Below, piece by piece: positions 45,043 through 64,000 of a stretch of DNA of 64,000 nucleotides (positions are counted from its first letter, which is position 1; the number at the start of each line of letters is the position of its first letter). The notes under the pieces are model-generated. The model was not told the DNA's origin. It worked only from the letters and a program-made list of their open reading frames with translations, and made no database searches. The DNA lies in assembly GCF_022213955.1 (NCBI RefSeq), contig NZ_JAKNTW010000001.1:310001-374000 (forward strand), read 5' to 3'. The position numbers were made by a program, and so were the translations under genes. Source of the DNA: Dolomitihabitans soli. Its GTDB lineage: Bacteria; Actinomycetota; Actinomycetes; Streptosporangiales; Streptosporangiaceae.

Positions 45043-45121
45043 AGGTTCGAGCTGCCAAGGTCCGCGCTGACCCGGGTCCGCGCTGTGCAGGGTCGGTGCT
45101 GACCAAGGTTCGTGCCGTGGG
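45043..45121. repeat. Five degenerate 16-bp tandem repeats
   Basis: Units starting at 45043, 45058, 45074, 45090 and 45106 follow the consensus RGGTYCGNGCTGNCCA (first unit 15 bp). They lie in the 271-nt gap between the protease start and the glutamate dehydrogenase stop. Nothing else was recognised there. Confidence 0.65.
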
Positions 45122-45183
45122 CTTGCCGTTCAGGGCCGGGTTGTCCAGGTTCTGCCGTTAAGGGTGCGTGAGATCGGGTGCCG

Positions 45184-46470
<1,287 letters not shown>

Positions 46471-46486
46471 GAAGACCTCCGGATGG

Positions 46487-46549
46487 GCGGGGCGCCGTTG
46501 CCCCGCTCGATGAAGTTGGCCGGATCGGTGCGGGGCGCCGTTGCCCCGC
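46487..46549. promoter_or_regulatory. Twin identical 20-bp hairpins upstream of glutamate dehydrogenase
   Basis: GCGGGGCGCCGTTGCCCCGC occurs at 46487-46506 and again at 46530-46549, identical, 43 bp apart. Each folds as GCGGGGC/GCCCCGC around a 6-nt loop. They begin 17 bp upstream of the start codon, so they are either in the mRNA leader or serve as operator copies. Confidence 0.7.
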
Positions 46550-47643
46550 CGCCGATCACGCCTACTGATCCAACCGGGTTCGGGCGGTCAAGGGAACGTG
46601 CCAATGTGGCGCGCTTCATCCCTGGAATTTGCCTATCTGTCACACCCGAGGAGGCGGGAGGGCCCGGCAGTCGTCCGCGCCGGCCACGCCCGCGGCTCCG
46701 GCGCCCATCGAACGGCTGGAACCGGCCGCCTCGATCGCAGGCGGCCCCACCTTAGGGGGTGTTCGCCGGGGCGAGATCGCCGGCGTCCCCGACCGGGATG
46801 GCGGACGACGCCGCACCTTCCGGATATGCGCTCCGCCTGATCGGGGTTTCGCGAGCACGCGGGCCGCCTGCCTCGGCCCTTCTTCGCGGTCGCTCATGGT
46901 CTCCGTCGTGAGCGGGGTGAATGGAATCTCTCGGTGTCGACCATTCTTTTGGCCTGCTCCGGCCCTGATCGGATTCACCCGGACCGGACGTTCATGATTG
47001 CTCGGTCCTATGACCCCATCGCCCTCTTCCCCATTCCCAGGCGCGGATTTCCCCGCACCAAGTGAGATGGCGTTGACCGGCGGCGAGCCGGCAGATGAAG
47101 CCGCTCGCCGGGTTCCGGCCTGACCGCGTTCGGCTCGTCGTCCTGGAGCGGAATCGGGGGGAGGGGCCTCGGTCATATGCCGCCACCTCGGTTCGTGCGG
47201 ATCCCGGCCGACGTCGCGGCGGTCCCTTGACGGCGCTCGAACACCGAGGTCATGGCCGCCTGAACCCTGCGTTCCCGGTCCGTTCCCCTCGACTGGGCGC
47301 GAGTCGGCGAGGCGGTCGACGACGCCGTTCTGTCGCTCCCGGAACAGAGCACGCATGAAGTCGTAGGAGGGTTGTCTCGCACCAGACCGGCGACCTATAG
47401 TCATTGACATAAATGATGTTGACAGCGCATGTAATTATTTCATGTCGAGTCATGCTCCTGGTGGATTTACTTTTCCTATTCGGGTTCAGAAATCATAAGC
47501 ATCTTTCGGATGTCGATTCCATCGTGACGATCCGGCGATGAAGGTCTGCGGTTCTCGCGCGAACCGGCGCCGGTGTTTCCGTGATGACGTGCCGTGTACC
47601 CATCGCGTCCGTGCGCGCTCGGCGATCCGGAAGGGAAGTGAGG
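46550..47643. other. 1.1-kb region without a supported gene
   Basis: Open frames exist on both strands but all look low-complexity (Arg/Gly/Pro-rich) and lack start signals or recognisable domains. The right part (about 47395-47520) is clearly AT-rich for this genome and contains two TTGACA hexamers (47404-47409, 47419-47424) and CATG-N9-CATG (47429-47444 region). It is probably the promoter region of the sugar cluster that starts at 47644. Confidence 0.6.
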
Positions 47644-48345
47644 ATGCGGTTGACCGGCACCCGGTTACGACCAGAGCCCGACGCCGTGCTGTTCGACGTC
47701 GGGTCCACGCTGATCCACGCCGACCCGGTGATCCTGACCACCTGCCTGACCCGGTACGGCGTGCGGGACGTCGCGCCGGAAGACGCCTCGGCGGCCTTCG
47801 TCCTGGCGCTGGAGGCCAGCCGGGAGCTGCTGCCGCGCGGGCTGGACGACATAGCGAAGGAGGCGGCGCGCTGGGGCCAGTTGCTGGGCATCGCGCCGGG
47901 CCCGGCGATGGCGGCCTTCCGGGACGTGCTCGACACGCCGGGGCTCTACCGATGCGTCGATCCGGACGCCCTCGTGGTCCTCGACGCGCTGCGTGCCGCC
48001 GGGGTGCTGCTGGTGGCCGTGGCCAATGCCGACGGAAACGTGGCGGAGGAGCTCGCCGAGGCCGGATTGCGCGAGTTCTTCGACGTGACGGTCGACTCGG
48101 CGGTGCTGGGGGTCGAGAAGCCGCGCCCGGAGATCTTCCACGACGCCTGCCGTCAGGTGGGGATCCCACCTGCCCGGTCGTGCTTCGTCGGGGATGGGCT
48201 GATCAACGATCTGCTCGGTGCGTGGGCGGCGGGCATCGGGCGCTGCGTCCTGTACGACCCGCTCGGTCTCCGGCCGGAGCTGCCCGGAGCCCTGCGGATC
48301 GGCCGGTTGACCGAGCTGCTCGATGTCACGGGTGAGGAGCGGTGA
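47644..48345 (+). CDS. HAD family hydrolase (probable sugar-phosphate phosphatase)
   Basis: A 233-residue HAD protein from ATG 47644. Motif I AVLFDVGSTLIHADP (nucleophile Asp; the usual second Asp is Gly, as in several HAD subgroups), motif II VAVANADGN, motif III lysine GVEKPRPEIFHDACRQ, motif IV CFVGDGLINDLLGAWAAGIG. As first gene of an operon with Gfo/Idh and DegT enzymes it may remove phosphate from an amino-sugar phosphate. Confidence 0.87.
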   Translation: MRLTGTRLRPEPDAVLFDVGSTLIHADPVILTTCLTRYGVRDVAPEDASAAFVLALEASRELLPRGLDDIAKEAARWGQLLGIAPGPAMAAFRDVLDTPGLYRCVDPDALVVLDALRAAGVLLVAVANADGNVAEELAEAGLREFFDVTVDSAVLGVEKPRPEIFHDACRQVGIPPARSCFVGDGLINDLLGAWAAGIGRCVLYDPLGLRPELPGALRIGRLTELLDVTGEER

Positions 48346-49349
48346 TGGCCGCGCACACGACCGTCCTGGTGGGCTTCGGCCACGTGGCGCGGAACTCCTA
48401 CCTGCCGGAGCTGGCCGCGAGGGGCGCGCGGGTGCGGGTGGTCGACCCCTCCCCGGCCGCACGGGCGGCGGCCGAGGGGCTCGGACTCGACGCGCTCACC
48501 GAGCTGCCGCCCGCGGAGGCCGGAGACCGGGCCCTGATCCTGACGCCCATTCCGAGCCATGCCGCCATGACCAGGGCGGCCATCGAACGCGGCTACCACG
48601 TGCTGGTGGAGAAGCCCGCCGCGCCGACCACCCGGAGCTGGGCCGACCTGTGCGGCATGGCCCGCCGGTCCGGGCGGGCGCTGGTGGCCGCGCCGTTCAC
48701 CGCCTCCGGCTGGGCCGCCGAGGCGATCCGGGCGCTGGTGACGGCCGGCGGGCTCGGCCGGCTCACCTCGATCACCGTCGACTTCGCCAAGTCCGGGCCC
48801 TTCGACAACGGGGAGGTGGCTCCCGAACGGGCCTGGTTCCTCGGCCCGGAGGCGGGCCCGGCGCGTGACTTCGGTCCTTATCCCCTGACCCTGCTGGTCG
48901 GGCTGTTCGGCCCGCTGGAGCAGGTGCGCTGGACCCGCGAGGAAGGCGCGGACCTGGGCCATGTGCTCCGCGGGCGGTTCGTCGTCGACGGGGTGGCCGT
49001 GCCGCTGCGGGCCTGCTTCCGCTACGCGGACGGCCGCGGCGACCGGCCGGTCGTCATCACCGGCACGCGAGGGGAGCTGGTCGTGGACAGCGAACGGGTC
49101 GACGGGCCGCTGACGGCTCCGGTGCCGCTGCCCGGGCCATCGGCCCGCCGGTCGAAGTACCAGCTCGCGCTGGCACAGTTCGACCTGCTGACCACCGACC
49201 TGCTGACCACCGGCCTGCTGACCACCGGCCTGCCGTCCGTCGCGCCGCCGTCCGCCGGTGACACGGCGCTGGACGCGCACCAGCGGATGGTGGGCGAGGT
49301 GATCGGCGTGCTCGAACGAGTCGACCTGGCGGAGAAGGGTGCCGCATGA
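48345..49349 (+). CDS. Gfo/Idh/MocA family dehydrogenase
   Basis: A 334-residue protein from ATG 48345 overlapping the HAD stop (GTG 48342 also possible). TTVLVGFGHVARNSYLPELA is the nucleotide-binding motif and HVLVEKPAAPTTRSWADLCG the EKP motif. Near the C-terminus a LLTTG-type unit is repeated three times (49185-49229). Adjacent to a DegT aminotransferase, it may oxidise a sugar hydroxyl to the ketone that is then aminated. Confidence 0.87.
   Translation: MAAHTTVLVGFGHVARNSYLPELAARGARVRVVDPSPAARAAAEGLGLDALTELPPAEAGDRALILTPIPSHAAMTRAAIERGYHVLVEKPAAPTTRSWADLCGMARRSGRALVAAPFTASGWAAEAIRALVTAGGLGRLTSITVDFAKSGPFDNGEVAPERAWFLGPEAGPARDFGPYPLTLLVGLFGPLEQVRWTREEGADLGHVLRGRFVVDGVAVPLRACFRYADGRGDRPVVITGTRGELVVDSERVDGPLTAPVPLPGPSARRSKYQLALAQFDLLTTDLLTTGLLTTGLPSVAPPSAGDTALDAHQRMVGEVIGVLERVDLAEKGAA
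49185..49229 (+). repeat. Three 15-bp repeats in a Gfo/Idh gene
   Basis: CTGCTGACCACCGAC and two copies of CTGCTGACCACCGGC in frame, encoding LLTTD-LLTTG-LLTTG. The repeat falls in a surface-like loop before the C-terminal helix. Confidence 0.85.
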
Positions 49350-50527
49350 CCGCCGATTACGCTCAGGCCACCTCCACGGTGCCGTCGCACGAGGTCTGGC
49401 TCGACGACGACGGCGTCGAGGCGGTGCTGGCACGAATCCGGACGTCGCTGGAGTCCGGGGCGCTGACCTCGGGCCCGCTGGTCGCCGAGTTCGAGTCCGC
49501 GCTGCGGCGCCGTACCGGACGGCGTGCCGCGGTCGCGGTGACGAACGGCACCGCGGCGCTGGAGCTGATGCTGCGCGCGCTCGGCGTCGGGCCGGGGCAT
49601 GAGGTCCTGGTCCAGGCGGGCAGCTTCATCGCCAGCGCCGCCGCGGTGCTCGCGGTCGGTGCCGACGTGCGGTTCGTCGACATGGACACCGGCAGCCTGG
49701 GCCCGACCGCCGCCCAGGTGGAACATGCCCTCACACCGGCGACCACCGTCGTCATGGTCACCCACCTGGGCGGGCTGATCAGCGGGCATCTGGACGAGGT
49801 CGCCCGGTTGTGCCGCGACCGGGGGATCCATCTGGTCGAGGACGCCGCGCAGGCGCTGGGCAGTACCCACCGGGGCAGGGCCGCGGGGTCCTGGGGGGTG
49901 GCCGCCACTCTCTCGTTCTACGCGCGCAAGGTGCTGACCACCGGCGAGGGCGGTGCCGTGCTCACCGACAACCGGGAACTGGCGGACCGGGTCCGCCTGC
50001 TCGGCGACCAGGGACGTTCGGCGGACGGCGTGCACCGCCACGCGGGCGGCAACTGCCGGATGACCGAGATGCAGGCCGCGCTCGGACTGGTTCAGCTGGA
50101 CCGGTTCGAGGAGAGCCTGGCTCGGCGCAGAGCGATCGCCGCGCGGTACGACGCGCACTTCGCGGGCTACCGGCGGCCGTTCGGCGCCGAAGTGGTGGTG
50201 AACCACTACAAATACTGGCTGGAGCTGCCGACGAGACAGGCGCGCGACGGCTTCGCCGCGGCGATGGGCGAGCAGGGGATCGAACTGCCGGGGCCCCTCG
50301 CCGGGCATGCCGAGCCCATTCACCGGCAGCCGGCGTTCGCCGGCCTGAGGCGGAGCGGGCCGCTGACGGAGACCGGGATGCCGGAGATGCCGGAGACCGA
50401 GCGGTTCTCCGGCCGCCATGTCTGCCTGCCGGTGTATCCGGGGCTGTCGGACGGCGGGCTGGAGAAGATCATCACGGCCGGCGCGCACGCGCTGCGCCGA
50501 TGCGACCCCTCGACGGAGAGTGTGTGA
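49346..50527 (+). CDS. DegT/DnrJ/EryC1/StrS family sugar aminotransferase
   Basis: PLP enzyme that aminates keto sugars or keto cyclitols. 393 residues from ATG 49346 (overlaps the previous gene). Typical motifs are TSGPLVAEFESALRRRTGRR, VTNGTAALELMLRALGVGPG, HLVEDAAQALGSTHRGRAAG, the PLP-lysine segment SFYARKVLTTGEGGAVLT and GGNCRMTEMQAALGLVQLDR. Substrate probably supplied by the adjacent Gfo/Idh dehydrogenase. Confidence 0.93.
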   Translation: MTADYAQATSTVPSHEVWLDDDGVEAVLARIRTSLESGALTSGPLVAEFESALRRRTGRRAAVAVTNGTAALELMLRALGVGPGHEVLVQAGSFIASAAAVLAVGADVRFVDMDTGSLGPTAAQVEHALTPATTVVMVTHLGGLISGHLDEVARLCRDRGIHLVEDAAQALGSTHRGRAAGSWGVAATLSFYARKVLTTGEGGAVLTDNRELADRVRLLGDQGRSADGVHRHAGGNCRMTEMQAALGLVQLDRFEESLARRRAIAARYDAHFAGYRRPFGAEVVVNHYKYWLELPTRQARDGFAAAMGEQGIELPGPLAGHAEPIHRQPAFAGLRRSGPLTETGMPEMPETERFSGRHVCLPVYPGLSDGGLEKIITAGAHALRRCDPSTESV

Positions 50528-50574
50528 CGCATGAGGTGTCTCGACCGGGCGGGCCTGATGATCGGAGCTGGGTG

Positions 50575-51414
50575 ATGGCGACGGGGAACATCGGCTACCT
50601 CGTGCTGGGCGCTCCCCGGTCGGGTACCAACCTGCTCTGCCACGCGCTGCACGCCACGGGCGAGGCGGGCGAACCCGACGAGTGGTACGGCCTGTCCCGG
50701 CTCCACCGGAGGCTGCTGCGCTGGGGGCTGGCCCACCCGGACTCGCGCCAGGAGGCGCCCCGGGCGACCGACTGGCCGGCCTACCGGCAGCGGCTGGCGG
50801 AGCGGGCCGCCGGCGAGGGGCGGTTCGGCGTGAAGGTGTTCCCCTATCACGTGGACCCGCTGTTCCGGTCCGGGCAACTGTCCTCTCCGGTGGATCTGCT
50901 GCCGACGGGATATCGCGCGGACATCCGGGTGATCGTGGTCAGCCGCCGTGACGTGGTCGCCCAGGCGGTCTCGATGGCGATCGCGTCCCGGACGGGTGTC
51001 TTCGCCGACGTGCCGGGCGACGTGCCGGTCCGGGTGCCCACGAGGGTGGCGTGGTGGCGGGAGGGGCCCCCGCCGGCGCTCGTCCCGGAGGGTCACCGGC
51101 TCACCGCCGACGCGTTCGACCCGGCGGAGATCCACCAGATCGTCGCCGGCGTACGGCGGCAGCACGCGGTCTGGGCGGGCTGGCTCGCCGCCACCAGGTT
51201 CCCGCGGTTGTCCGTGACGTACGAGGATCTGGTGGACCGGCGGGAGCTCGTGCTGCAGTCCGCCTTCGATCTGCTCGGCATGTCCGCCCGTGCCGTCGAC
51301 CACCCCGACTCCGGGCTCCGCCGCCAGGCCACCGCCCTCAACGGGGAGATCGGCGAGGCGTACCGGGAGTGGCTCGGCGCCCGGCCGGCCGGCGTCGAGG
51401 GGGCGGCCCGATGA
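50575..51414 (+). CDS. Stf0-like sulfotransferase
   Basis: A 279-residue protein from ATG 50575 with GGAG 7 nt upstream. GYLVLGAPRSGTNLLCHAL is the 5'-phosphosulfate (PAPS) binding loop; AGEPDEWYG follows as in Stf0 trehalose sulfotransferase (TGxAGxPxEYF pattern). IRVIVVSRRDVVAQAVSMAI is the 3'-phosphate motif and LSVTYEDLVDRRE the C-terminal family motif. It likely transfers sulfate from PAPS to a sugar of the product. Confidence 0.88.
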   Translation: MATGNIGYLVLGAPRSGTNLLCHALHATGEAGEPDEWYGLSRLHRRLLRWGLAHPDSRQEAPRATDWPAYRQRLAERAAGEGRFGVKVFPYHVDPLFRSGQLSSPVDLLPTGYRADIRVIVVSRRDVVAQAVSMAIASRTGVFADVPGDVPVRVPTRVAWWREGPPPALVPEGHRLTADAFDPAEIHQIVAGVRRQHAVWAGWLAATRFPRLSVTYEDLVDRRELVLQSAFDLLGMSARAVDHPDSGLRRQATALNGEIGEAYREWLGARPAGVEGAAR

Positions 51415-52571
51415 GCGGCCGTTCCGGCGGGACGGCCGGCCCCGAGCGCGTGCTGCTGGCGGCCCCCGGCGAGCTGTCCGACTCCCGCGGGGGCGCCCCC
51501 ATGCGGTGGCGTGCGCTCCACGCCGCGCTGTCCGCCCATGCCACCATCGACTACCTTCCGGTGACCTGTGCCGCTCCGGGACGGACCTGCCCGCATCGCG
51601 CCGGGTCCACGCGGCAGGCGCGCGACGACCCTTTCGCGAAGTCCTACTGCCCGGTCCAGAGCGACGACCTGCTGGCCAGGGTGACGGCCGGCAAGCCCGA
51701 CCTGGTGATCTCCAGTGAGCTTCGGCTGCATCGCTACGCGGAGCGGATCCGGCGGCTCACCGGAGTGCCCGTGGTGGACGACATGCACAACGTGGAGTTC
51801 GCGCTGCGCCGCGAACTGGAGAGCGAGCGGCTGTCGGAGCGGTACACCCCCGAGCACGCCCAGCAGGTGTTCGACGTCGAGGAGAAGGTGCTCGCCGAGG
51901 CCGCCGGAGTCTGGGTGTGCAGCGAACGCGACCGCGAGCTGCTGCTGTCGCTGCACGGTTCCCGGCACGCGGACCTGGTGCGGGTGGCGAGCAACGCGAT
52001 CCCGGCGCCGGCGGTCCTCGCCGCGGCCGGCGGGATCGAATCGGTCGTTTTCACCGGGCGGCTGGGCTACGAGCCCAACAGCCAGGCCGTGCGCCTGCTG
52101 ATCGAGGAGATCGTGCCGCGGCTGCGCCGTGCGCACCCCGGTCTCCCGGTCGTCATCGCCGGTGCGCGCTGCCCGGAATGGGTGCTCCGGGCGGCGGGCA
52201 CGACACCGGGCCTGCGGGTGATCGCCGATCCACCCGACCTGTCCGAGGTGATCCGGCGTGGCGTGATGGTGGTGCCGCTGCGGGTGGGCGGCGGGACCAG
52301 GTTCAAGGTGCTCGAAGCGTTCGCGCTCGGCGCCCCGGTGGTGTCGACCGCCAAGGGCGTGGAGGGGCTGGACCTGGCCGACGGATGCCACTATCTGCGG
52401 GCCGAGCGGCCGGAGGAGTTCGTCGAGGCGATCGGGCGGATCCTGGCCGACGGAGGGCTGGCGGCGCGGCTGCGGGCCGGCGGCCACGAGCACCTGCGGC
52501 GGCGGTTCTCCTACGAGGCTCTGACCGGCCAGGTCGGGGCCGCCCTCGCGGCGTTGCGGGGAGCGTCGTGA
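51411..52571 (+). CDS. Glycosyltransferase, GT4-like
   Basis: A 386-residue GT-B protein from ATG 51411 overlapping the sulfotransferase stop. N-terminal LLAAPGELSDSRGGAPMRWR; VPVVDDMHNVEFALRRELES in the acceptor half; donor half with VVFTGRLGYEPNSQAVRLLI, VMVVPLRVGGGTRFKVLEAF and APVVSTAKGVEGLDL. Pattern is that of capsule/antibiotic GT4 enzymes. Donor and acceptor unknown. Confidence 0.9.
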   Translation: MSGRSGGTAGPERVLLAAPGELSDSRGGAPMRWRALHAALSAHATIDYLPVTCAAPGRTCPHRAGSTRQARDDPFAKSYCPVQSDDLLARVTAGKPDLVISSELRLHRYAERIRRLTGVPVVDDMHNVEFALRRELESERLSERYTPEHAQQVFDVEEKVLAEAAGVWVCSERDRELLLSLHGSRHADLVRVASNAIPAPAVLAAAGGIESVVFTGRLGYEPNSQAVRLLIEEIVPRLRRAHPGLPVVIAGARCPEWVLRAAGTTPGLRVIADPPDLSEVIRRGVMVVPLRVGGGTRFKVLEAFALGAPVVSTAKGVEGLDLADGCHYLRAERPEEFVEAIGRILADGGLAARLRAGGHEHLRRRFSYEALTGQVGAALAALRGAS

Positions 52572-53695
52572 GCGCCTCCCGGGCCGGCATCGCGGTCGTC
52601 GGCTGCGGCTATGTGGCGGACTTCTATCTGAACACCCTGGAGGATCATCCGGGGCTCACCCTGGTCGGCGTGCACGACCGGATCGCCGAGCGGGCGGTCC
52701 TGGCGGCCGGGAGACACGGGGTGAGGGCGTACGAGGACCTGCCGCGGCTGCTCGCCGACGACCGGGTGTCGATCGTCGTCAACCTGACGAACCCGGCGAG
52801 CCACGCCGAGGTCACGCTCGCCGCGCTGGCCGCCGGGAAGCACGTCTACTCGGAGAAGCCGCTGGCCACCCACGTCGCCGACGGGCGGCGCATCGTGGCG
52901 GAGGCCGAGCGGCGCGGGCTGCTCGTCTCGTGCGCTCCGGCGAACGTCCTCGGGGAGGCGTTCCAGACGTTGTGGCGGGAGATCCGGTCCGGGGCGGTGG
53001 GGGAGCCGCGCCTGGTCTACGCCGAACTCGACGACGGTGCCGTCCACCTCATGGACTACCAGACCTGGAAGAACAGCATGGGCAGCCCGTGGCCGTACCG
53101 CGACGAGTTCGCGGTGGGGTGCAACGCCGAGCACTCGGCGTACCATCTGGCGGCCCTCACCACCATGTTCGGGCCGGTGCGCCGGGTGGTGGCCGACCAC
53201 GGCACGCTGATGCCGGACAAGCTGCCCCCCGGCGAGGACGGGCCGGTCGGTCCGGACTACGTGACCGCCTCGCTGACCTTCGGCTCCGGTGTGATGGCCA
53301 GGTTGACGTGCAGCATCGTCGCCCCGGCGGACCGTTCCCTGACGGTGGTCGGAGACGGTGGCGTGCTGCGGCTGGACAACTGCTGGGACTTCGGCTCGGG
53401 CCTCACCCTCCGGGCGCCGGCCGGGCGCGGGCACGACTACCTGCTCGGCGCGCGGCCGGTGGATCCCGTCCGGCCGTACGCCTATCGGAAGCGCTACGCG
53501 GCCGACCACCGGATGGACTTCCCCCGGGGCGTCGCCGAACTCGCCGCCGCGGCCGGGGAACGGCGGCAGCCGCGGCTGTCCGCCCGGCACGCGCTGCACG
53601 TCCTGGAGGTCACGGACGCGATGACCGCGCGCCACGGCAGCACGGAGATCACGTCGGAGTTCGCCGCCCCGGAGCCGATGACGTGGGCGCGATGA
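52568..53695 (+). CDS. Second cluster Gfo/Idh/MocA dehydrogenase
   Basis: A 375-residue protein from GTG 52568 (overlap GTGA). GIAVVGCGYVADFYLNTLED and HVYSEKPLATHVADGRRIVA are the nucleotide and EKP motifs; the C-terminal domain is full length, including CNAEHSAYHLAALTTMFGPV in which the His could act in catalysis. It is clearly different from the dehydrogenase at 48345, so two oxidations or an oxidation/reduction pair are possible. Confidence 0.88.
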   Translation: MSASRAGIAVVGCGYVADFYLNTLEDHPGLTLVGVHDRIAERAVLAAGRHGVRAYEDLPRLLADDRVSIVVNLTNPASHAEVTLAALAAGKHVYSEKPLATHVADGRRIVAEAERRGLLVSCAPANVLGEAFQTLWREIRSGAVGEPRLVYAELDDGAVHLMDYQTWKNSMGSPWPYRDEFAVGCNAEHSAYHLAALTTMFGPVRRVVADHGTLMPDKLPPGEDGPVGPDYVTASLTFGSGVMARLTCSIVAPADRSLTVVGDGGVLRLDNCWDFGSGLTLRAPAGRGHDYLLGARPVDPVRPYAYRKRYAADHRMDFPRGVAELAAAAGERRQPRLSARHALHVLEVTDAMTARHGSTEITSEFAAPEPMTWAR

Positions 53696-54804
53696 CCGGC
53701 GTGACGACCGGCGCGGCGCCGGGAGCCGGGCGGCGGCCCGCGCTCTCCTGCGCGATCATGGCTCATCCGGCGAGGCGCCGCTCCGCCGAGCGGATCGCGG
53801 TACGGCTGGCCGCGCTGTCGCCGACGATCGTGTACGACCCCGATCCCGGCGGGCCCAGGTCGACGCTGCGCACGGCCGTCGCCGCGTGGTCGGCCGTCAC
53901 GGACGGGGCCACCCACCATCTCGTCGTGCAGGATGACGTCGAGCCGGTGGACGACTTCGTCCCGCGCCTGCGCCACGCGGTGGCCGGCCATCCGGACAAG
54001 GTGCTCTGCGCGTTCACCGAGTGGGGCTGCCAGACGGCGACCATGGTCCGCTGGGGGGCCATGCACGGCATCGGCCTGGTGGAGTGCGTCGACAACTACG
54101 TGCCCACCCAGGCGACGGTGCTGCCCGCCGCCGACGCGACGGCGTTCGCCGCCTACGCGGCGGAACATCTCTCCTGGGACACGCCCGACGACATCGGCCT
54201 GCGCCGGTACCTGGCGGCGGGGGGCCGGTCGGCGTACGCGCTGGCGCCCAACCTGGTGGACCACGACGCGATGGCGAGCCTGGTGGGCAACGAGTCGGAC
54301 GGCCTGCGTCCGGCCGCCTGGCTGCCCGCCCGCGGCGAGGCTCCGGGTGGGCCGGGCGTGCTGCTCGCGCCGCCCCGCATACCGACGCAGACCTGGAGCA
54401 AGGGCCGGGCCCTGTGCTTCAGGTACGCCCCCGAGTCGCTGCGCATGGAGGACTCGGAACCCACCCGCCGGGTGCTGGCCCGGCGGGGCACGGCTCCCCG
54501 CCCGATCACCGACCGGCTGGACGCGGCGTTGGACGCGGCGGGCCGGGCCGTGGACCTGGAGCTGCACATCGGCTACGCCCTGCTGCACGAGCTGTGGGTG
54601 ACCGCGGTCGCCCTCGGTGCGCTGCTGCCCGCCGTGCCGGGGGAGAAGGAGCCGTCTCCGGACCGCGCCGCGCGCCGGGCGCTGAGCACGATGGGGCCGG
54701 GGGCGCTGCGGTGCTTCGCCGGCGCCGCGGTGCTCCGGGAGTGCGGACCGGTTCTGACCGATCTGGTCGTCGAGGGGGTGTCCTGCGGACTTGAGACCCG
54801 ATGA
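53692..54804 (+). CDS. Putative glycosyltransferase-like protein
   Basis: A 370-residue protein from ATG 53692 (overlap ATGA). The N-terminal half, ALSCAIMAHPARRRSAERIA, and HHLVVQDDVEPVDDFVPRLR recall a GT-A nucleotide-sugar fold in which DDV would be the metal-binding DxD-like site. YVPTQATVLPAADATAF and LVDHDAMASLVGNESDG resemble the acceptor side. The C-terminal 100 residues are helical and unassigned. Glycosyl transfer is an inference from weak motifs and context. Confidence 0.65.
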   Translation: MTGVTTGAAPGAGRRPALSCAIMAHPARRRSAERIAVRLAALSPTIVYDPDPGGPRSTLRTAVAAWSAVTDGATHHLVVQDDVEPVDDFVPRLRHAVAGHPDKVLCAFTEWGCQTATMVRWGAMHGIGLVECVDNYVPTQATVLPAADATAFAAYAAEHLSWDTPDDIGLRRYLAAGGRSAYALAPNLVDHDAMASLVGNESDGLRPAAWLPARGEAPGGPGVLLAPPRIPTQTWSKGRALCFRYAPESLRMEDSEPTRRVLARRGTAPRPITDRLDAALDAAGRAVDLELHIGYALLHELWVTAVALGALLPAVPGEKEPSPDRAARRALSTMGPGALRCFAGAAVLRECGPVLTDLVVEGVSCGLETR

Positions 54805-56704: not shown

Positions 56705-58500
56705 GAAACCTCGTCCTGGCGGCGGCACGGTTGCTGGCCATGTCGTGGCGGCAGAGCCGGCGGAAGACCGCCGCCGCGACCGTGCTGATGCTGGCCAGCG
56801 GCACCGCCGTACCGCTGGCCGGGCTCGGCCTGCGCCAGCTCTTCGACGCGGCGCTCGCCGGGCGGGCCGGCGAGGCGGTGATCGCGGGCGTCCTGGTCGC
56901 GGTGCTGCTCATCGCGGGGCTGACGTTCACGCACTTCGCCCACATCGCCTACTTCGAGCTCGCCGAGCTGAACATGCTGCACTACGACGAGGAGTTGATC
57001 ACCCTTGCCAACGGCTCCCCCGGCCTGGAGGCGCACGAGGACTCCGCCCACGCCAACCGTTTCACCGTCCTGGCGCAGGAGGTGCAGCAGACCCGCAACA
57101 CGCTCCGGTCCCTGCTGACCTTCGCCGGGCTCGGTGTGGGGATGCTGCTGACCGCCGTACTGCTGGCGATGCTGCATCCGGTGCTCCTGCTCCTGCCCGT
57201 GGTGGCGGTGCCGCCGCTGCTGGCGGGACGCAGGTCCGAGCGGCTGGCGGACCGGGCCAGGGAGGCCACGGCCGAGCCGACCCGGCTCGCGCTCAATCTG
57301 TTCCGGCTGGCCGGGGACGAGGGCTCCGCCAAGGAGGTGCGGGTCTACCACCTGCAGGACGAGGTACGGCGTCGCCACACGGCGCTGTGGAACCAGGTGA
57401 GCACGACGCTCTGGCGGGCGCACCGCCGATCCACCCTGCTGCGGGCCGCCGGCCAGCTCGTGTTCGCCGCCGGATACGTCGCCGCGGTGTTGCTGGTCGT
57501 CCGCGAGACCATCGCCGGCCGGCGGACGGTGGGCGACGTGGTGCTGGTGGTCGCGCTCGCCGCCCAGGTGAACGCGCAGGTCGCCCAGACGGTGGCGCTG
57601 GTGCCCGATCTGCAGCGCCTGACCGGCGTCGACCGGCGCCTGCGCGAACTGCGCGAAGCGCTCTCACCCGCCTCCGCCGCCGCCCGCACCGCTGATGGGC
57701 CCGCCGCCGCGCCCGTGCCGGAGCGGCTGGAACAGGGCATCACCCTGCGGGGGGCGTCCTTCTCCTATCCGGGCACCAGGGCGCCCGCGCTGCGCGACGT
57801 CGACCTGCACCTGCCCGCGGGCTCCACGGTCGCCGTCATCGGCGAGAACGGCGCCGGCAAGAGCAGCCTGGTCAAACTGCTGTGCGGGTTCTACCGGCCC
57901 GCCGAAGGCGAGATTCTCATCGACGGCATCGACTTGGACCGCATCCCGCTCGGCGGTTGGCGCACCCGGATCGCGGCGGGCTTCCAGGACTTCGTCCGCT
58001 ACGAGTTCGCGGCCCGGCGGGCCGTGGGCGTGGGCGACCTGCCCCTGGAGGGCTACGAGAAGGCGGTGCTGGCCGCTCTGGACCGGGCCCACGCGGCCGA
58101 CGTGCTCCCCACCCTGCCCGCCGGGCTGGCCACGCAACTCGGCAGGAGCTACGCCGACGGGATCGAGCTCTCCGGCGGGCAGTGGCAGAAGCTGGCCCTC
58201 GGGCGCGCGCTCATGCGCGAGCAGCCGCTGCTGCTCGTCCTGGACGAGCCCACCTCGGCACTGGACCCCGAGGCCGAGCACGCCCTCTTCGAACGCTACG
58301 CCGCGCAGGCCGCGCGGGCCGCCACCACGGGCGCGATAACCCTGCTGGTCTCGCATCGCTTCTCCACCGTCCGTACGGCCGATCTCATCGTCGTGGTCTC
58401 GGGCGGCCGGGTGACCGAGGTCGGGGACCACGCCGCCCTGGTGCGCGAGGGCGGCCTCTACGCGGAGCTGTACGGACTGCAGGCCCGGGCCTACCGCTGA
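56701..58500 (+). CDS. ABC transporter, fused permease-ATPase (exporter half 2)
   Basis: A 599-residue half-transporter from ATG 56701 overlapping half 1 (ATGA). Membrane domain at about 15-300, ATPase with GENGAGKSSLVKLLCGFYRP, LSGGQWQKLALGRALM and LLVLDEPTSALDPEAEHALF, plus LLVSHRFSTVRTADLIVVVS. The LSGGQWQ signature is shared with half 1. It is last in the rightward operon and its 3' end overlaps the convergent phosphatase gene by 10 bp. Confidence 0.92.
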   Translation: MRNLVLAAARLLAMSWRQSRRKTAAATVLMLASGTAVPLAGLGLRQLFDAALAGRAGEAVIAGVLVAVLLIAGLTFTHFAHIAYFELAELNMLHYDEELITLANGSPGLEAHEDSAHANRFTVLAQEVQQTRNTLRSLLTFAGLGVGMLLTAVLLAMLHPVLLLLPVVAVPPLLAGRRSERLADRAREATAEPTRLALNLFRLAGDEGSAKEVRVYHLQDEVRRRHTALWNQVSTTLWRAHRRSTLLRAAGQLVFAAGYVAAVLLVVRETIAGRRTVGDVVLVVALAAQVNAQVAQTVALVPDLQRLTGVDRRLRELREALSPASAAARTADGPAAAPVPERLEQGITLRGASFSYPGTRAPALRDVDLHLPAGSTVAVIGENGAGKSSLVKLLCGFYRPAEGEILIDGIDLDRIPLGGWRTRIAAGFQDFVRYEFAARRAVGVGDLPLEGYEKAVLAALDRAHAADVLPTLPAGLATQLGRSYADGIELSGGQWQKLALGRALMREQPLLLVLDEPTSALDPEAEHALFERYAAQAARAATTGAITLLVSHRFSTVRTADLIVVVSGGRVTEVGDHAALVREGGLYAELYGLQARAYR

Positions 58501-59033
58501 AGGGCGGTGAGCGCCCAGTCGACGGCCTCCCCTATGTGACGGGCCACGAAGTCCGCCGAGGACTCGGCCACCTCCCGGCCCAGGGGGTGGATGAGGACGG
58601 TGGCGGCGCCGACGGCGCGGCCCGCCAGCAGGTCGGACACCGAGTCCCCGACCATGCAGGAGCCCGGCAGGGAGATGGAGTGGTCGGCCGCGGCGCGGGT
58701 CAGCATGCCGGGGGCGGGTTTGCGGCAGTCGCAGCGGTCCAGGGGATGGGGGCACACGTAGCCCGCGTCGAGCCGGGCTCCCCGCTCGGCCAGCAGCTCA
58801 CGCAGACGGGCGTCCACCGCCGCGTACGCGGCGGGGCCGGCCGGGGGGCGGGCGAGCCAGCGCTGGTTGGTGACCAGGACGGCCAGGACGCCGGCCCGGT
58901 TGACGCGGCGTACGGCTTCGGCGGCGCCGGGGAGCAGCACCAGTTCCTCGGGCCGGCGGATGTACTCGCCCGGTGGAGCCTTCTCGTTGAGCGTGCCGTC
59001 TCGGTCGAGGAACACGGCACGGTTCCGGGACAT
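58491..59033 (-). CDS. GmhB-like HAD-IIIA phosphatase
   Basis: A 180-residue protein from ATG 59033 (GGTGG 8 nt upstream; GTG 59045 possible). AVFLDRDGTLNEKAP is the DxDGT nucleophile motif, AVLVTNQR motif II, and CPHPLDRCDCRKPAPGM has the zinc-binding Cys/His pattern and lysine of D-glycero-manno-heptose-1,7-bisphosphate phosphatase GmhB. MVGDSVSDLLAGRAVGA is motif IV. The neighbouring nucleotidyltransferase supports a heptose-type pathway. Confidence 0.9.
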   Translation of the reverse strand: MSRNRAVFLDRDGTLNEKAPPGEYIRRPEELVLLPGAAEAVRRVNRAGVLAVLVTNQRWLARPPAGPAAYAAVDARLRELLAERGARLDAGYVCPHPLDRCDCRKPAPGMLTRAAADHSISLPGSCMVGDSVSDLLAGRAVGAATVLIHPLGREVAESSADFVARHIGEAVDWALTALQR

Positions 59034-59055
59034 CGTCTCGGCCACCCCGGCGAGC

Positions 59056-59634
59056 TCAGATCAGGCCGAAGTGCAGGGCGTGCAGGAGGGCGACGGTGCT
59101 CAGCGCCCCGGGCACCCGCCCTTCCTCGATCAGACCGGACAACCGGTCCCGCGAGACCCAGACCCGTGACGAGGACTCGTGCGCGTCGACCGGATCTCCG
59201 GCCCGTTCGCCCGCGGTCCCCAGCACGAAATGGAAACGCTGGTCGCTCACGCCGTCGGAGGGGCTGCACGAGAACATCCTGGTCACGGTCCGCAGGGTCC
59301 ACCCGGTCTCCTCCAGGACCTCCCGGGCCGCCGCCTCCTCGACGGTCTCGCCCTCGTCCACCCCTCCGGCGGGGATCTCCAGCCCGGTGGTGCCGGTGAT
59401 GAAGCGGTGGCGGTGCAGCAGCAGAACCCCGTGCTCAGGGTGGACCAGCACGACGCCGACGGCGTCGGGCACCCGGACGACGTGGTGGTCGTACGGCTCG
59501 CGGCCGGGTGGCGCGACGGTCACCAGATCGAGGCTGACCCAGCGGCTGGTGTAGAGCCGCCGGCTGCCCAGCGCGTCCCAGTGCTGCGAGCTCGGCAGCC
59601 GGCCGACGCCGCCTGCCGGGGAAACGATCTCCAT
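59056..59634 (-). CDS. Nudix hydrolase
   Basis: A 192-residue protein from ATG 59634. The Nudix box GGVDEGETVEEAAAREVLEE followed by TGW is complete, preceded by TGTTGLEIPAGG, a pattern found in ADP-ribose/nucleotide-sugar pyrophosphatases. In this operon it may act on a nucleotide sugar or recycle intermediates; substrate unknown. Confidence 0.9.
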   Translation of the reverse strand: MEIVSPAGGVGRLPSSQHWDALGSRRLYTSRWVSLDLVTVAPPGREPYDHHVVRVPDAVGVVLVHPEHGVLLLHRHRFITGTTGLEIPAGGVDEGETVEEAAAREVLEETGWTLRTVTRMFSCSPSDGVSDQRFHFVLGTAGERAGDPVDAHESSSRVWVSRDRLSGLIEEGRVPGALSTVALLHALHFGLI

Positions 59635-59646
59635 CGGTCTTTCCTC

Positions 59647-60624
59647 TCAGTCGGACGTCACCGGGTGCCGCCGGCCCAGCAGGGCCCGGGCGGTGTGCCG
59701 TACGGCTTGCTCCGAGGTCCGCACCGGGCTCCAGCCGAGGCTCCGCAGCGCGTCCGGCCGCAGGCGCAGGGTCGGCACGTCACCTCGCCAGCCCTCCTCT
59801 CCGCCGGCGCAGGTGATGCTCGGCGTGCCGTGCGGCGACTCCGCCGCGATGATCTCCGCGACGCGCCGGGCGGTGATCGCGTCGGAGTTGCACACATGGA
59901 AGATGGAGAACGGGGCGTCGGTCGTGGACAGGGTCCGCAGCGCGGCGACGCAGTCATCCACGTGCAGGTAGCTGCGGGTCTGCCTGCCGTCGCCGAGGAG
60001 CTGTATCCGCTCGGTGCCGTCGTCGAGGCGGTTGACGAGGTCGGAGACGATGCCGCGCCGCATGCCGGGGCCGACGATGTTGGACAGCCGGCCCACGGCC
60101 GTCGTGAGCCCGCACTCGTGGGCGTACGCCCGCAGGAACGCCTCGGCGGCGGTCTTCCCCGCGCCGAACCGCGTGGTCGGCCGCGGCACCCCGGTCCGCT
60201 CGGTGACCGGGTCACCGTCGGGCGCGGAACCGTACACCAGCTGACTGGACGTCAGCACCACCCTTGTGGGCACACGCGCCGCGCCGGGGGCGGTGAGGGC
60301 TTCGAGCAGCGCGACGGTGCCCCCGACGGTGTCGGTGAAGTCGGCGGTACGGCCGGCCCGGTCGCCTCTGTTCTCGGTGTTCGCCGACAGGTGGTAGACG
60401 ACCTCGGAGTCCGCCAGGAGCGGGCGGAGCCGCTCGGCGTCCCGCACGTCCGCGAAATGGTAGGTCAGGCCGTCGCCGCGGAGCGGGTGCAGCCGGTCGG
60501 CCTCCTCCCACGGCACCCGGTCGATCACCGTCACCGGTGTCCCGTCCCGCCGCAGGGCGGTCACCAGGGCCGCGCCGATGAATCCGGCGCCGCCCGTGAC
60601 GACGGCTCGATCGTGTGAGGTCAT
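59647..60624 (-). CDS. NAD-dependent epimerase/dehydratase with Tyr-to-Phe at the YxxxK site
   Basis: A 325-residue extended SDR from ATG 60624 with AAGGAG upstream. Cofactor motif AVVTGGAGFIGAALVTALRR; VVYHLSANTENRG; VVLTSSQLVYGSAPDGD supplies the active-site Ser region. The usual YxxxK appears as RFGAGKTAAEAFLRAY, so the catalytic Tyr is Phe while Lys is kept. VGRLSNIVGPGMRRG and YLHVDDCVAAL are typical of nucleotide-sugar epimerases. Overlaps the nucleotidyltransferase gene by 4 nt. Confidence 0.87.
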   Translation of the reverse strand: MTSHDRAVVTGGAGFIGAALVTALRRDGTPVTVIDRVPWEEADRLHPLRGDGLTYHFADVRDAERLRPLLADSEVVYHLSANTENRGDRAGRTADFTDTVGGTVALLEALTAPGAARVPTRVVLTSSQLVYGSAPDGDPVTERTGVPRPTTRFGAGKTAAEAFLRAYAHECGLTTAVGRLSNIVGPGMRRGIVSDLVNRLDDGTERIQLLGDGRQTRSYLHVDDCVAALRTLSTTDAPFSIFHVCNSDAITARRVAEIIAAESPHGTPSITCAGGEEGWRGDVPTLRLRPDALRSLGWSPVRTSEQAVRHTARALLGRRHPVTSD

Positions 60625-61343
60625 CGTCGTGGCTCCTTGGAAGTGATCTGCCGGGTTCTCAGGTGCGTGATCAGCGCGGCGTGCCGTTCGGGCGTCCCGA
60701 TGTCGAAGAACCGCCGGTCGGTGGTGGTGCCGGCGAGAGCGCCGTGGTCGATGAGCCGTCGGAACAGCACGCCCAGGTCGACGGGTGCCCCGGTGCGCGG
60801 GAGCAGGTCGAGCGCCCGGCGGCGCAGGAAGGTGACGCCGGTGTCCACCCACCCGCCGGGCATCCCGCGCTTGTCGTAGCCGGTCACCGTCGTGTCCCGC
60901 AGCCGGACGTTGGGCCGCACCTCGCTCGCCGCCCTGGTCAGCACCATCATCCCCAGCATGTCCTCGGGGCACAGGTCGAACAGGCGCCCGTAGTCGATGT
61001 CCAGGTAGGTGTCGCCCAGCATGACCAGGAACGACTCGTCCAGGTGGCGGGCGCTGTGCAGCAGGGCGCCCGCGGTGCCGAGTGGGGCGGGCTCGATCTC
61101 GCTGGTGATCTCACAGTCGCCGGCCAGGGCCGACAGGTGGCCGGCGACCTGAGCGCCGAGGTGCCCCAGGCAGAAGTGAAACCGCCGCAGACCGCTCGCG
61201 CGCACCGGTTCGAGCATCGTGTCCAGGAAGACCCCGCCCTCGACGTCCTGCAGCACCTTCGGCCGGTTCGCGGCCATCCGCCCGAGCCGGCTGCCGAGGC
61301 CACCGGCGAGGAGCACCACCTGTTCGCCGCGTCGCGCCGCCAT
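60621..61343 (-). CDS. Sugar-1-phosphate nucleotidyltransferase (HddC/RmlA-like)
   Basis: A 240-residue protein from ATG 61343. VVLLAGGLGSRLGRMAANRP is the nucleotide-binding signature with PKVLQDV, and VMLGDTYLDIDYGRL the metal-binding Asp region. EPAPLGTAGALLHSARHL and GGWVDTGVTFLRR are the sugar-phosphate segments. The short length fits heptose-1-phosphate guanylyltransferase HddC. Together with the GmhB-like phosphatase it suggests activation of a heptose. Confidence 0.87.
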   Translation of the reverse strand: MAARRGEQVVLLAGGLGSRLGRMAANRPKVLQDVEGGVFLDTMLEPVRASGLRRFHFCLGHLGAQVAGHLSALAGDCEITSEIEPAPLGTAGALLHSARHLDESFLVMLGDTYLDIDYGRLFDLCPEDMLGMMVLTRAASEVRPNVRLRDTTVTGYDKRGMPGGWVDTGVTFLRRRALDLLPRTGAPVDLGVLFRRLIDHGALAGTTTDRRFFDIGTPERHAALITHLRTRQITSKEPRR

Positions 61344-61345
61344 CG

Positions 61346-62302
61346 TCAGGCCTTCGGCGCCGCGCCGGGCGGTCCGCCCAGCAACGCGCGCACGTCCGGG
61401 CGCAGGAAGATGTCCGCGCACCACCGGAAGTGGCCGTCCTGCCCCCGGGGGTCGTAGGCGTTGCTGGTGATCGCCCCGTAGGCGGCGCGGTACAGCGTCA
61501 TGCGGTGCGCCGGATGGTCGAAGCGTTCGGCGATGGCGGCGTCGATGGAGGTCTCCACCTCACGCGCCTGCGGGCCGTACATGTCGAAGATGCTGGCCGT
61601 CACGGCGGCGTCGAACACCGGGTCACCGATCGTGGACAGGAACCCGAAATCGACGACCGCGGTCGGCCGCAGCGCGTCGTCCACGAGGACGTTGCCGGGG
61701 ACCAGGTCGCCGTGCATCAGGCCGAGCCGTACGTCGGGCAGCGCCGCCACCAGCTCCAGCAGGCGCCGCGCCATGTCGTCGAACCCCGGTACGGCGACGC
61801 GGAGCTGGTCGCCGAACAGCTTGAGCCTGCGGGCGGTCAGCTCCGCGAGGGCGTCCGGCCAGCTCCCGCGTCCGGCCCAGAACGGCTCGGCCTCGTCGAG
61901 TACGGCGAGCCCGCGCAACGCGGGGGCGTCGGCGACGGAGGCGACCTGTTCCAGCACGTCGAGCATGCACCGCACCGCCACCGGCCATGTCTCCGGCCGC
62001 CGGGGTGCCAGGTCCGGCAGCGGAGTGCCGTGCAGCCGGTGTTCGATGGTGACGAACCGGCCGTCCTCGTGCAGCACCCGCTCGATCCGCGGCGTATCGA
62101 AGGTCAGGCCGGCCCGGGAGAGCTCGTCGTAGAAGAGTTTGAGCCGCTCCAGCTCCGTTCCTGTGCGGCTGCCCCACACCTTGGCCACCAGCTCGTCGTT
62201 CAGCGTGTAGACCGCACCCTCCATGCCGGCCGCGAGCGCGCGGGCGTCGGGGAATCCGTTTGCCGCGAAGTATCGGATCCACTTCTCGTCATGCTGCTGC
62301 AC
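61346..62302 (-). CDS. APH/choline-kinase-like phosphotransferase
   Basis: A 318-residue protein from GTG 62302 with GGAG 5 nt upstream. AGMEGAVYTLNDELVAKVWG gives the N-lobe lysine, LGLMHGDLVPGNVLVDD the Brenner motif (HGDxxxxN) and TAVVDFGFLSTIGDP the metal-binding DFG-like motif. It could phosphorylate a sugar or the product (self-protection), or act as the anomeric kinase missing from the heptose set. Only 2 nt separate it from the nucleotidyltransferase. Confidence 0.85.
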   Translation of the reverse strand: MQQHDEKWIRYFAANGFPDARALAAGMEGAVYTLNDELVAKVWGSRTGTELERLKLFYDELSRAGLTFDTPRIERVLHEDGRFVTIEHRLHGTPLPDLAPRRPETWPVAVRCMLDVLEQVASVADAPALRGLAVLDEAEPFWAGRGSWPDALAELTARRLKLFGDQLRVAVPGFDDMARRLLELVAALPDVRLGLMHGDLVPGNVLVDDALRPTAVVDFGFLSTIGDPVFDAAVTASIFDMYGPQAREVETSIDAAIAERFDHPAHRMTLYRAAYGAITSNAYDPRGQDGHFRWCADIFLRPDVRALLGGPPGAAPKA

Positions 62303-62333
62303 GTGCTCTCCACGACCTCTCTGGTCAGATCGT

Positions 62334-63287
62334 TCACCGGCTCGGCCGGAGCCGCTCGACGGGTATGGGATACAGCATCTCCTGGTCGGGCGGGTCCTCC
62401 CGGCCGGTGCAGATGGCCAGATAGAGTTCGCGGACGGCTGTGGTGACCGGCCCCGGCGCGGCGTTCGCGGGCAACCCGTCGATGCTGCCGATGGCGCGTA
62501 TCTCGTCGAGGGTGCCGCAGACGAACGCCTCGTCGGCGAGGTGCAGCTCCGTGCGCGGCACCGACCTCTCCACCACCGGCACCCCCAGCCGGGAACGCAG
62601 CAGATCGATGACGACGCCGCGGGTGATGCCGTCGAGCACGCCGTCGGCCAGCGGCGGGGTGACGGCCGTGCCGCCGCGCAGCAGGAACACCGCGGCGCCG
62701 CCGGTCTCCGCGACGGTGTCGCCTGCGTTGAGCAGGATCGCCTCGTCGGCGCCCGCCAGGGCCGCCTCGATCCGGGGCAGACGGAACGCCTGGTAGGCGG
62801 CACCCACCTTGACCAGGGGCGAGACGGCGAGATCGGAGGTGCGGCGCCATGAACTGACGATGCACGACATCGGTGCCTCCGAACGGGCGTCGGTGGGGTA
62901 CCCCGCGATGTAGCTCCCCAGCCTCACCTGGCCCGGCCGCCAGCCGTAGCGTCCCTCTTCGATGTAGAGCGTGGGCCGGAGATAGAGGTCGCCCTGGTGG
63001 TTCAGCGCCTGAATGAGCCGCGGCACGCCGTCCAGCAGTTCCTTGACGAGTGCGGCGCTCTCGTCGGCCGGGAACCGGATCAGCCGCGCCGACTGTTCCA
63101 GGCGGGCCAGGTGCCGTCGCAGGTACACCACCGCGTGCCGCCGGCGCCCGGGTTGCCAGTACGCCCGGAGTCCCTCGAAGACGTTGGTGCCGCGCGTCGC
63201 CACCTCGGAGGTGACGTGCACACGCGCGTCGTCCCACGCCGTCAGCCGGCCGTTCCACCAGATCAGCTCCGGGTCGCGCTCATACAT
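62334..63287 (-). CDS. Branched-chain aminotransferase-like (class IV PLP enzyme)
   Basis: A 317-residue protein from ATG 63287. IWWNGRLTAWDDARVHVTSE, TRGTNVFEGLRAYWQ and LYLRPTLYIEEGRYG are typical of IlvE. The PLP lysine lies in SPLVKVGAAYQAFRLPRIEA (family pattern K-x-GxNY) and LADEAFVCGTLDEIRAIGSI is the C-terminal phosphate-binding region. It may make an amino-acid or amino-acyl moiety of the product. Overlaps the glycosyltransferase by 8 bp. Confidence 0.9.
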   Translation of the reverse strand: MYERDPELIWWNGRLTAWDDARVHVTSEVATRGTNVFEGLRAYWQPGRRRHAVVYLRRHLARLEQSARLIRFPADESAALVKELLDGVPRLIQALNHQGDLYLRPTLYIEEGRYGWRPGQVRLGSYIAGYPTDARSEAPMSCIVSSWRRTSDLAVSPLVKVGAAYQAFRLPRIEAALAGADEAILLNAGDTVAETGGAAVFLLRGGTAVTPPLADGVLDGITRGVVIDLLRSRLGVPVVERSVPRTELHLADEAFVCGTLDEIRAIGSIDGLPANAAPGPVTTAVRELYLAICTGREDPPDQEMLYPIPVERLRPSR

Positions 63288-64000
63288 GTCCGGCCTCCTG
63301 CGGCTTCGGCGGGTTCACGGTGCCACCGGCGGCCAGGGCCAGCAGGGCCGCCTCGGTCCGTTCGAGCATCCGGTGGCGGGAGAAGAGGTTCCGCACGTGG
63401 CGGCGGGCGGCGTCGCCCAGCCGCGCCCGCAGGTCGCCGTCGGCCACCAGGTCGAGCAGGGCGCCCCCCAGCGGTCCCGGTGCGCCCGGCGGCACCACCC
63501 GGGCGATGCCGGGAGCGGTGAGGATCTCCCGGATACCGACGATGTCCGTGGTGACGACGGCCCTGCCCGTGCTCATCGCCTCCAGCACCGACATGCCGAG
63601 CCCTTCCTCGTGGCTGGGCTGGGCGACGATGTCGGCCGCGGCCAGCACCTCGGGCATCTGGTCGAACGTCACCGTCTCGTCGATGGTCACCACCTCGCCC
63701 AGACGTGCCCGGGCGATCTCTTCGTACAGCCGCGCGGCGTAGTCGAGCGACGCGGAGCTGACGCTTCCCACGATGAGCAGCCGGGCTTGCGGGCGGGCGT
63801 CGTGGACGTCGGCGAAGGCACGGATCGTCTCCAGGATGCCCTTGCGCGGCTTGAGCCGTCCCGCGCACACGATCACGGTGTCCTGCGGCGTGTATCCGTA
63901 GCGCCGCCGCATCGGCCCCCCGTCGACTCCGGGATGGAACCGGCCGGTGTCGACGCCGTGGTAGACCAGCTTCACCGGGACGCCGCCTCCCCAGTGGGCG
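63280..64000 (-). CDS. Glycosyltransferase GT4, N-terminus beyond window
   Basis: At least 240 C-terminal residues; the frame is open to the right edge (GGVPVKLVYHGVDTGRF). Donor half of a GT-B enzyme: VIVCAGRLKPRKGILETIRA, RLLIVGSVSSASLDYA, VLAAADIVAQPSHEEGLGMS and VLEAMSTGRAVVTTDIVGI with the GT4 E(x7)E pattern. It is the first visible gene of the leftward operon and probably glycosylates the cluster product. Confidence 0.92.
   Translation of the reverse strand, partial: AHWGGGVPVKLVYHGVDTGRFHPGVDGGPMRRRYGYTPQDTVIVCAGRLKPRKGILETIRAFADVHDARPQARLLIVGSVSSASLDYAARLYEEIARARLGEVVTIDETVTFDQMPEVLAAADIVAQPSHEEGLGMSVLEAMSTGRAVVTTDIVGIREILTAPGIARVVPPGAPGPLGGALLDLVADGDLRARLGDAARRHVRNLFSRHRMLERTEAALLALAAGGTVNPPKPQEAGHV

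Follow-up and report, generated by a model that had tools for sequence, protein, structure and literature searches.

We report here a 20-gene cluster that begins in a 64,000-nucleotide stretch (the window) of the 10.8-Mb genome of the actinobacterium Dolomitihabitans soli (contig NZ_JAKNTW010000001.1, positions 310001-374000), and which we rate as a saccharide-type cluster using nucleoside diphosphate (NDP)-heptose logic, overlooked and with no known product. The cluster is a horizontally acquired biosynthetic cassette inserted between a glutamate dehydrogenase gene (gdh) and phoD. With slightly better than even confidence, we propose that this acquired cluster makes an exported, sulfated, amino-sugar-bearing glycoside of a heptose or heptose-like sugar.

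The cluster runs past the window edge, and the following 19 kb of the contig were examined. This rightward extension, suggested in an original prediction made from the window alone, showed that the window truncates the locus and revealed four further genes, encoding an HddA-type kinase, a ManC-like nucleotidyltransferase, a GmhA-like isomerase and a NagA-like protein. The complete locus comprises 20 genes over approximately 21 kb, from 47644 to about 68449 when the window numbering is continued beyond 64000, arranged as two converging operons of nine plus-strand genes (47644-58500) and eleven minus-strand genes (58491 to 68449/68578), most of which overlap or nearly overlap. Families were assigned with Pfam and NCBIfam, nearly all at family level only. 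Together with motifs, these assignments recovered every gene class named in the original prediction and supported its picture of a saccharide-type cluster, uncharacterised so far, that combines heptose genes with those for a sulfotransferase and an exporter. Its statement that no polyketide synthase (PKS), nonribosomal peptide synthetase (NRPS) or ribosomally synthesized and post-translationally modified peptide (RiPP) core is present held for all 20 genes. Active-site signatures are intact in the ABC proteins, Stf0, NUDIX, DegT, GmhB, HAD, HddA, APH kinase and NagA-like products. On its gene content, the locus is best read as a self-contained saccharide-type biosynthetic cluster.

Among the genomes checked, the cluster was complete in only one other, Streptomonospora nanhaiensis 12A09 (NZ_CP113264.1), which carries 20/20 genes in the same order at 58-75% amino acid identity, and this conservation in a second genus excludes a chance grouping. 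The S. nanhaiensis copy is flanked by unrelated genes. The only difference seen is an S-adenosylmethionine (SAM) methyltransferase gene between hddA and the GT4 gene, missing in D. soli, whose product may therefore be an unmethylated congener. This methyltransferase lies at L026:16676-17533, and methyltransferases were also observed in several related clusters. At the insertion site, gdh and the PhoD gene are adjacent in three relatives of the host (G009, G005 and G015). DNA similarity to the closest of them, G009, stops at about 46507 and resumes at about 68963, and what the empty site lacks runs from 46508 to about 68962 (contig about 378962), approximately 22 kb with approximate edges. The NagA-like gene, used as a marker, was detected in none of 119 other relatives, and among 394 genomes sampled in the class three others matched it (66%, 37% and one weak match). 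Because the cassette is intact at an unrelated site in S. nanhaiensis and relatives retain an empty site, we regard it as horizontally moving. No integrase or flanking repeat was seen at the two junctions, which share no 12-mer; the window contains no tRNA, and no Rfam match was found in 44900-64000. The original prediction had named a cell-wall glycan locus, conserved in all relatives, as the alternative to a dedicated cluster. A core locus of this kind was rejected, as the marker is absent from all 119 relatives and the site is empty in G009, G005 and G015, and the cluster interpretation stood.

Gene content, motifs, synteny and insertion were read directly from the sequence, and the heptose-type genes all lie on the minus strand. 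From the convergence point, the gene order of this operon is GmhB, NUDIX, SDR, NT1, APH kinase, class IV aminotransferase, GT4, HddA, NT2, GmhA and NagA-like. The GmhB-like heptose-bisphosphate phosphatase (58491..59033; NF006506, 2.6e-38) has the DxDGT motif and the Cys cluster CPHPLDRCDC, with a score below the curated equivalog cut-off. The HddA-type GHMP kinase (64578-65594, contig 374578-375594; NF049969, 4.7e-37; PDB 4n3o, 4.1e-33) shows HddA homology and the GHMP motif PSGGGLGGS, again below the equivalog cut-off, and the only other match to the HddA model in the same genome is a 22-bit fragment. The GmhA-like isomerase (66633-67331, contig 376633-377331; TIGR00441, 7.1e-26; PDB, 6.8e-25) belongs to a group of proteins common among the relatives of the host. 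Most of the heptose-type genes, namely the isomerase, the HddA-type kinase and the ManC-like nucleotidyltransferase, are thus outside the window, as is the divergent NagA-type deacetylase gene. The original prediction of nucleotide-heptose genes was right in outline, with its key enzymes beyond the window edge and two enzymes of the cluster carrying altered catalytic residues. For GDP-D,D-manno-heptose synthesis, counterparts of HddA and GmhB were found, and a GmhA with the catalytic Glu and Gln was not.

Two nucleotidyltransferases are encoded. The first, NT1 (60621..61343, minus strand; PF12804, 2e-8), is MurU/HddC/GlmU-like and matches the NCBIfam MurU (52 bits) and HddC (47 bits) models below their cut-offs. 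The second, NT2 (65587-66636, contig 375587-376636, minus strand; PF00483, 4.7e-41; NF052502, 2.5e-50), is ManC-like, with a mannose-1-phosphate guanylyltransferase as its best model. Against the HddC guanylyltransferase model, with a cut-off of 300 bits, NT1 and NT2 score 47 and 45 bits; the nucleotidyltransferase predicted in the window is present, but is a weak HddC match. Similarly, the kinase predicted in the window exists, but it is an APH-fold small-molecule kinase (61346..62302, minus strand; PF01636, 4.8e-15; HGDLVPGN and DFG motifs), the heptose kinase being HddA beyond the window. The same strand encodes a NUDIX hydrolase with an intact Nudix box (59056..59634; PF00293, 1.9e-18), an extended SDR of the epimerase/dehydratase family (59647..60624; PF01370, 2.4e-40), a BCAT-like class IV aminotransferase (AT4; 62334..63287; PF01063, 1.7e-38; PDB 6gkr, 8.8e-57) and a GT4 glycosyltransferase (63280-64494; PF00534, 3.5e-28), of which the 3' part is in the window and 494 bp lie beyond it (to contig 374494). 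The best PDB match of the GT4 protein is PimB' (3.8e-18), followed by MshA.

On the plus strand, the gene order is HAD, Gfo/Idh, DegT, Stf0, GT-B, Gfo/Idh, an unassigned protein and two ABC halves. The HAD-IA phosphatase (47644..48345; PF00702, 1.7e-19; the HAD-IA models TIGR01509/TIGR01549 over cut-off; 64% identity to Streptomonospora), Gfo/Idh/MocA oxidoreductase 1 (48345..49349, alternative start 48342; PF01408, 7.3e-11; EKP motif; 58% to Streptomonospora) and the DegT/DnrJ sugar aminotransferase (49346..50527; PF01041, 5.4e-89) overlap successively by 1-4 bp. Where Gfo/Idh and DegT genes are adjacent and overlap, amino sugars are the usual outcome, which agrees with the original analogy between these three genes and kanosamine synthesis by NtdC/NtdA/NtdB, and hence with a kanosamine or aminoglycoside-type product. 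However, DegT is far nearer to perosamine synthetase, its best PDB match (4.8e-50), than to NtdA (1.8e-29), and the HAD protein is of type IA, a HAD subclass other than that of NtdB. Moreover, in a cluster from a Streptomycetaceae metagenome-assembled genome (MAG; locus L032), the HAD gene lies among genes of the other operon, between the class IV aminotransferase and APH kinase genes, and because of this position HAD probably works with these two enzymes rather than with Gfo/Idh 1 and DegT. The NtdABC analogy, which calls for an NtdA-type aminotransferase and a Cof-type HAD-IIB phosphatase, was consequently rejected, and we consider a product of this type very improbable.

Downstream of DegT, the Stf0-type sulfotransferase (50524..51414; PF09037, 7.7e-23, 81.7 bits for a cut-off of 22) has the phosphosulfate-binding motif GAPRSGTN for 3'-phosphoadenosine-5'-phosphosulfate (PAPS). 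It is followed by a GT-B glycosyltransferase (Glyco_trans_1_4; 51411..52571; PF13692, 1e-17), for which a PDB search gave nothing useful, and by Gfo/Idh/MocA oxidoreductase 2 (52568..53695; PF01408, 4e-24; 75% to Streptomonospora), which has no close homologue in seven other cluster-bearing genomes tested. The conserved protein encoded at 53692..54804 matched no Pfam or NCBIfam model and a PDB search of its family gave nothing useful, but a 15-member alignment shows invariant H25, R60 and DD81-82 motifs, from which it is probably a GT-A glycosyltransferase. The prediction of at least two glycosyltransferases was borne out by GT-B and GT4, to which this gene, unnamed at that time, would add a third. 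The operon ends with the two TMD-NBD (transmembrane domain-nucleotide-binding domain) halves of an ABC exporter (54791..56704, PF00005, 5.5e-28; 56701..58500, PF00005, 1.5e-26), both with Walker A/B and LSGGQ motifs.

The last minus-strand gene, NagA-like (67379-68449/68578, contig 377379-378449), matched no Pfam or NCBIfam model and its PDB sequence search was empty. We built a fold model from the Streptomonospora orthologue with 19 sequences (pLDDT 92), and its 32 best PDB folds were all NagA or AMDHD2. In the alignment the HxH, E, H, H, D pattern does not vary, and from these motifs we read its residues as equivalent to the metal and acid/base residues of NagA. The protein thus has the modelled TIM-barrel amidohydrolase fold of the NagA kind, and deacetylase activity is predicted. 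It resembles the N-acetylglucosamine-6-phosphate (GlcNAc-6-P) deacetylase NagA in its fold, metal-site pattern and DGxHVD motif; by contrast, it is only approximately 15-20% identical to solved NagAs and forms a family of its own, associated with saccharide clusters and with a small number of operons in Bacillota. More distant homologues (35-36% identity) were observed in Bacillota loci L041, L039, L040, L043 and L048. On plasmid pBpOF4-01, such a gene is annotated as GlcNAc-6-P deacetylase beside genes for a LacI regulator, a permease and a Cof-type HAD protein; the annotation of this plasmid relative reveals nothing beyond a NagA operon of catabolic appearance.

When 84,980 species genomes were scanned for the pattern of the NagA-like alignment, 20 loci emerged, and mapping the cluster proteins onto them revealed three nested layers of conservation. 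In the first, NagA-like, NT2 and GT4 occur together in Streptomyces, Kitasatospora, a Frankia and two alphaproteobacterial MAGs. Most of these also carry the class IV aminotransferase, and Kitasatospora and the MAGs have HAD and the APH kinase as well. In the second, gmhA, hddA and gmhB join NT1, SDR and NUDIX in L032, where these heptose genes share a single operon with GT4, AT4, HAD and the kinase; a short contig of S. violaceorubidus carries some of them. In the third, Gfo/Idh 1, DegT, Stf0, GT-B, Gfo/Idh 2, the unassigned protein and the ABC pair are found together only in the host and Streptomonospora. In Streptomyces sp. MJM8645, the NagA/NT2/GT4 genes are followed by a phosphomannomutase gene over its curated cut-off, which fits, without proving, an exchange of a mannose-type sugar-1-phosphate supply for the heptose set in the host cluster. 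Another conserved protein of about 400 amino acids (L042:8038-9264 and L033:5125-6339), one member of which matches SIR2 weakly, was observed with NUDIX and the NagA/NT2/GT4/aminotransferase core in the alphaproteobacterial MAGs and Kitasatospora.

From these families we infer the substrates, the order of steps and the product as follows. The NDP-heptose or heptose-like donor would be made first, and GT4 would transfer this unit to an acceptor that the class IV aminotransferase, the HAD phosphatase and the APH kinase would build or modify; the NagA-type enzyme would remove an N-acetyl group. Gfo/Idh and DegT of the second operon would add an amino sugar, one or two further glycosyl units would follow, Stf0 would add sulfate, and the heterodimeric ABC transporter would export a small, polar, sulfated amino-glycoside-like metabolite. 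The proximity of GT4 to PimB', which uses GDP-mannose, supports this scheme.

Several observations weigh against it. No enzyme, including those of the heptose set, reaches an NCBIfam equivalog cut-off. The cluster GmhA carries the catalytic substitutions E68D and Q175E and a Val in place of the phosphate-loop Thr; these changes are common to 4/4 cluster members and found in 0/12 GmhAs from other genomes, those of relatives being canonical, and the Gln at the replaced position has been described as fully conserved (PMC7705670). Since conserved catalytic residues are replaced, its substrate may be other than sedoheptulose-7-phosphate. In each of the three cluster orthologues of the SDR, Phe occupies the position of the catalytic Tyr (FGAGK/FAAGK), whereas two distant relatives retain the Tyr. 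Because of the substitutions in GmhA and the missing SDR Tyr, the exact sugar is unproven and looks, from the sequence, to be seven-carbon or similar; re-tuned substrate use is our simplest guess for both changes. In S. achromogenes, the mutase encoded nearby is not a phosphomannomutase but a phosphoglucomutase, with a score slightly below the cut-off. No metabolite was found linked to any cluster of this family, and the acceptor and the roles of AT4, the kinase, HAD and NUDIX are putative.

The altered GmhA residues hint at a non-standard substrate, and an octose or other non-heptose sugar was considered, in which isomerase, GHMP kinase, phosphatase and nucleotidyltransferase would be followed by SDR, Gfo/Idh and DegT acting on the NDP-sugar. 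Enzymes of these classes are also the ones assigned to octose formation in lincosamide biosynthesis. There, GDP-octose is the substrate of CcbZ and CcbS together with LmbM/LmbL (PMC12945683), a precedent for SDR, Gfo/Idh and DegT type enzymes working on a higher-sugar nucleotide. The 20 genes, however, include no transaldolase, carrier protein, condensation, thiol chemistry or proline pathway genes, and LmbT is not among the PDB matches of GT4 at E<=1e-12. From gene content and the PDB matches of GT4, we judge this explanation quite unlikely.

A lipid-linked sulfated glycan of the surface, or of the spore or sporangium, for which the ABC pair would serve as a PglK-like flippase, would also be compatible with an NDP-heptose, several glycosyltransferases and Stf0, and sulfated exopolysaccharide clusters have been proposed in Actinoplanes missouriensis (PMC13390465). 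A Wzx/Wzy polysaccharide locus was rejected, as the priming glycosyl-phosphate transferase, Wzx, Wzy and Wzz are all lacking among the 20 genes, and no polymer-anchoring gene was seen there. The locus is absent from the 119 relatives, and its core module is common to clusters with MFS genes. The original prediction had left a small saccharide-type metabolite and a sulfated surface glycan side by side; the missing priming, flippase/polymerase and anchoring genes lead us to prefer the free sulfated saccharide, with the surface glycan kept as an unlikely rival.

No defined pathway tested was found in full, the cluster was matched by no known cluster examined, and a literature search for an equivalent cluster found nothing relevant. 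The isomerase, GHMP-type C1 kinase, phosphatase and nucleotidyltransferase families are those of known heptose systems (Campylobacter jejuni capsule, PMC10680097; Mycobacterium tuberculosis GmhA, PMC7705670), whereas here the isomerase residues are altered, the nucleotidyltransferase is ManC-like and the genes reside in an acquired cluster with a sulfotransferase and an ABC exporter. Septacidin/spicamycin and hygromycin B are actinomycete secondary metabolites from heptose precursors, the former built via ADP-beta-D-manno-heptose according to work cited in PMC10948575. In contrast, the cluster kinase is of the HddA type (alpha-anomer logic), and no HldE-type (PfkB-fold) heptose kinase/adenylyltransferase is present among the 20 genes, which sets the cluster apart from an ADP-beta-heptose route. 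The sulfotransferase shares the Stf0 domain and PAPS-binding motif with Stf0 trehalose 2-sulfotransferase, but with 57 bits it falls short of the cut-off of 400 set for the trehalose enzyme.

Taking the free sulfated saccharide further, we hold as tentative the proposal of a new class of secreted sulfated amino-glycoside-like products built on NDP-heptose or on a higher sugar from a re-tuned GmhA, within a wider unrecognised family of saccharide clusters marked by the NagA-like/NT2/GT4 core. A class IV aminotransferase often accompanies this core, and the family would extend over Streptomyces, Kitasatospora, rare actinomycetes and Alphaproteobacteria. Where a saccharide pathway contains no PKS, NRPS or RiPP genes, its product readily escapes notice, as exemplified by S. 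nanhaiensis, whose published antiSMASH 8.0 list of 23 clusters has none between 214,488 and 605,576 (PMC12842786); its copy, at about 574,891-596,531, falls within this gap. With an exact boundary, a second intact copy in a type strain that is in culture and a gene core that recurs, the product can be tested directly, and the NDP-sugar module of four genes, with its altered isomerase residues, poses a well-delimited question of enzymology.

Elsewhere in the window, a prokaryotic viperin gene (pVip) split by a frameshift was observed at 41858-42741 on the minus strand (PADLOC PDLC02905, 1e-66 and 6.6e-23 for two overlapping reading frames). This stretch is absent in G009, where a TetR gene directly precedes glutamate dehydrogenase. 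The neighbours of the viperin gene are a PurM/SelD-like gene, a phosphoribosyltransferase-like gene and a PfkB kinase gene, in a GC-poor (60%) patch.

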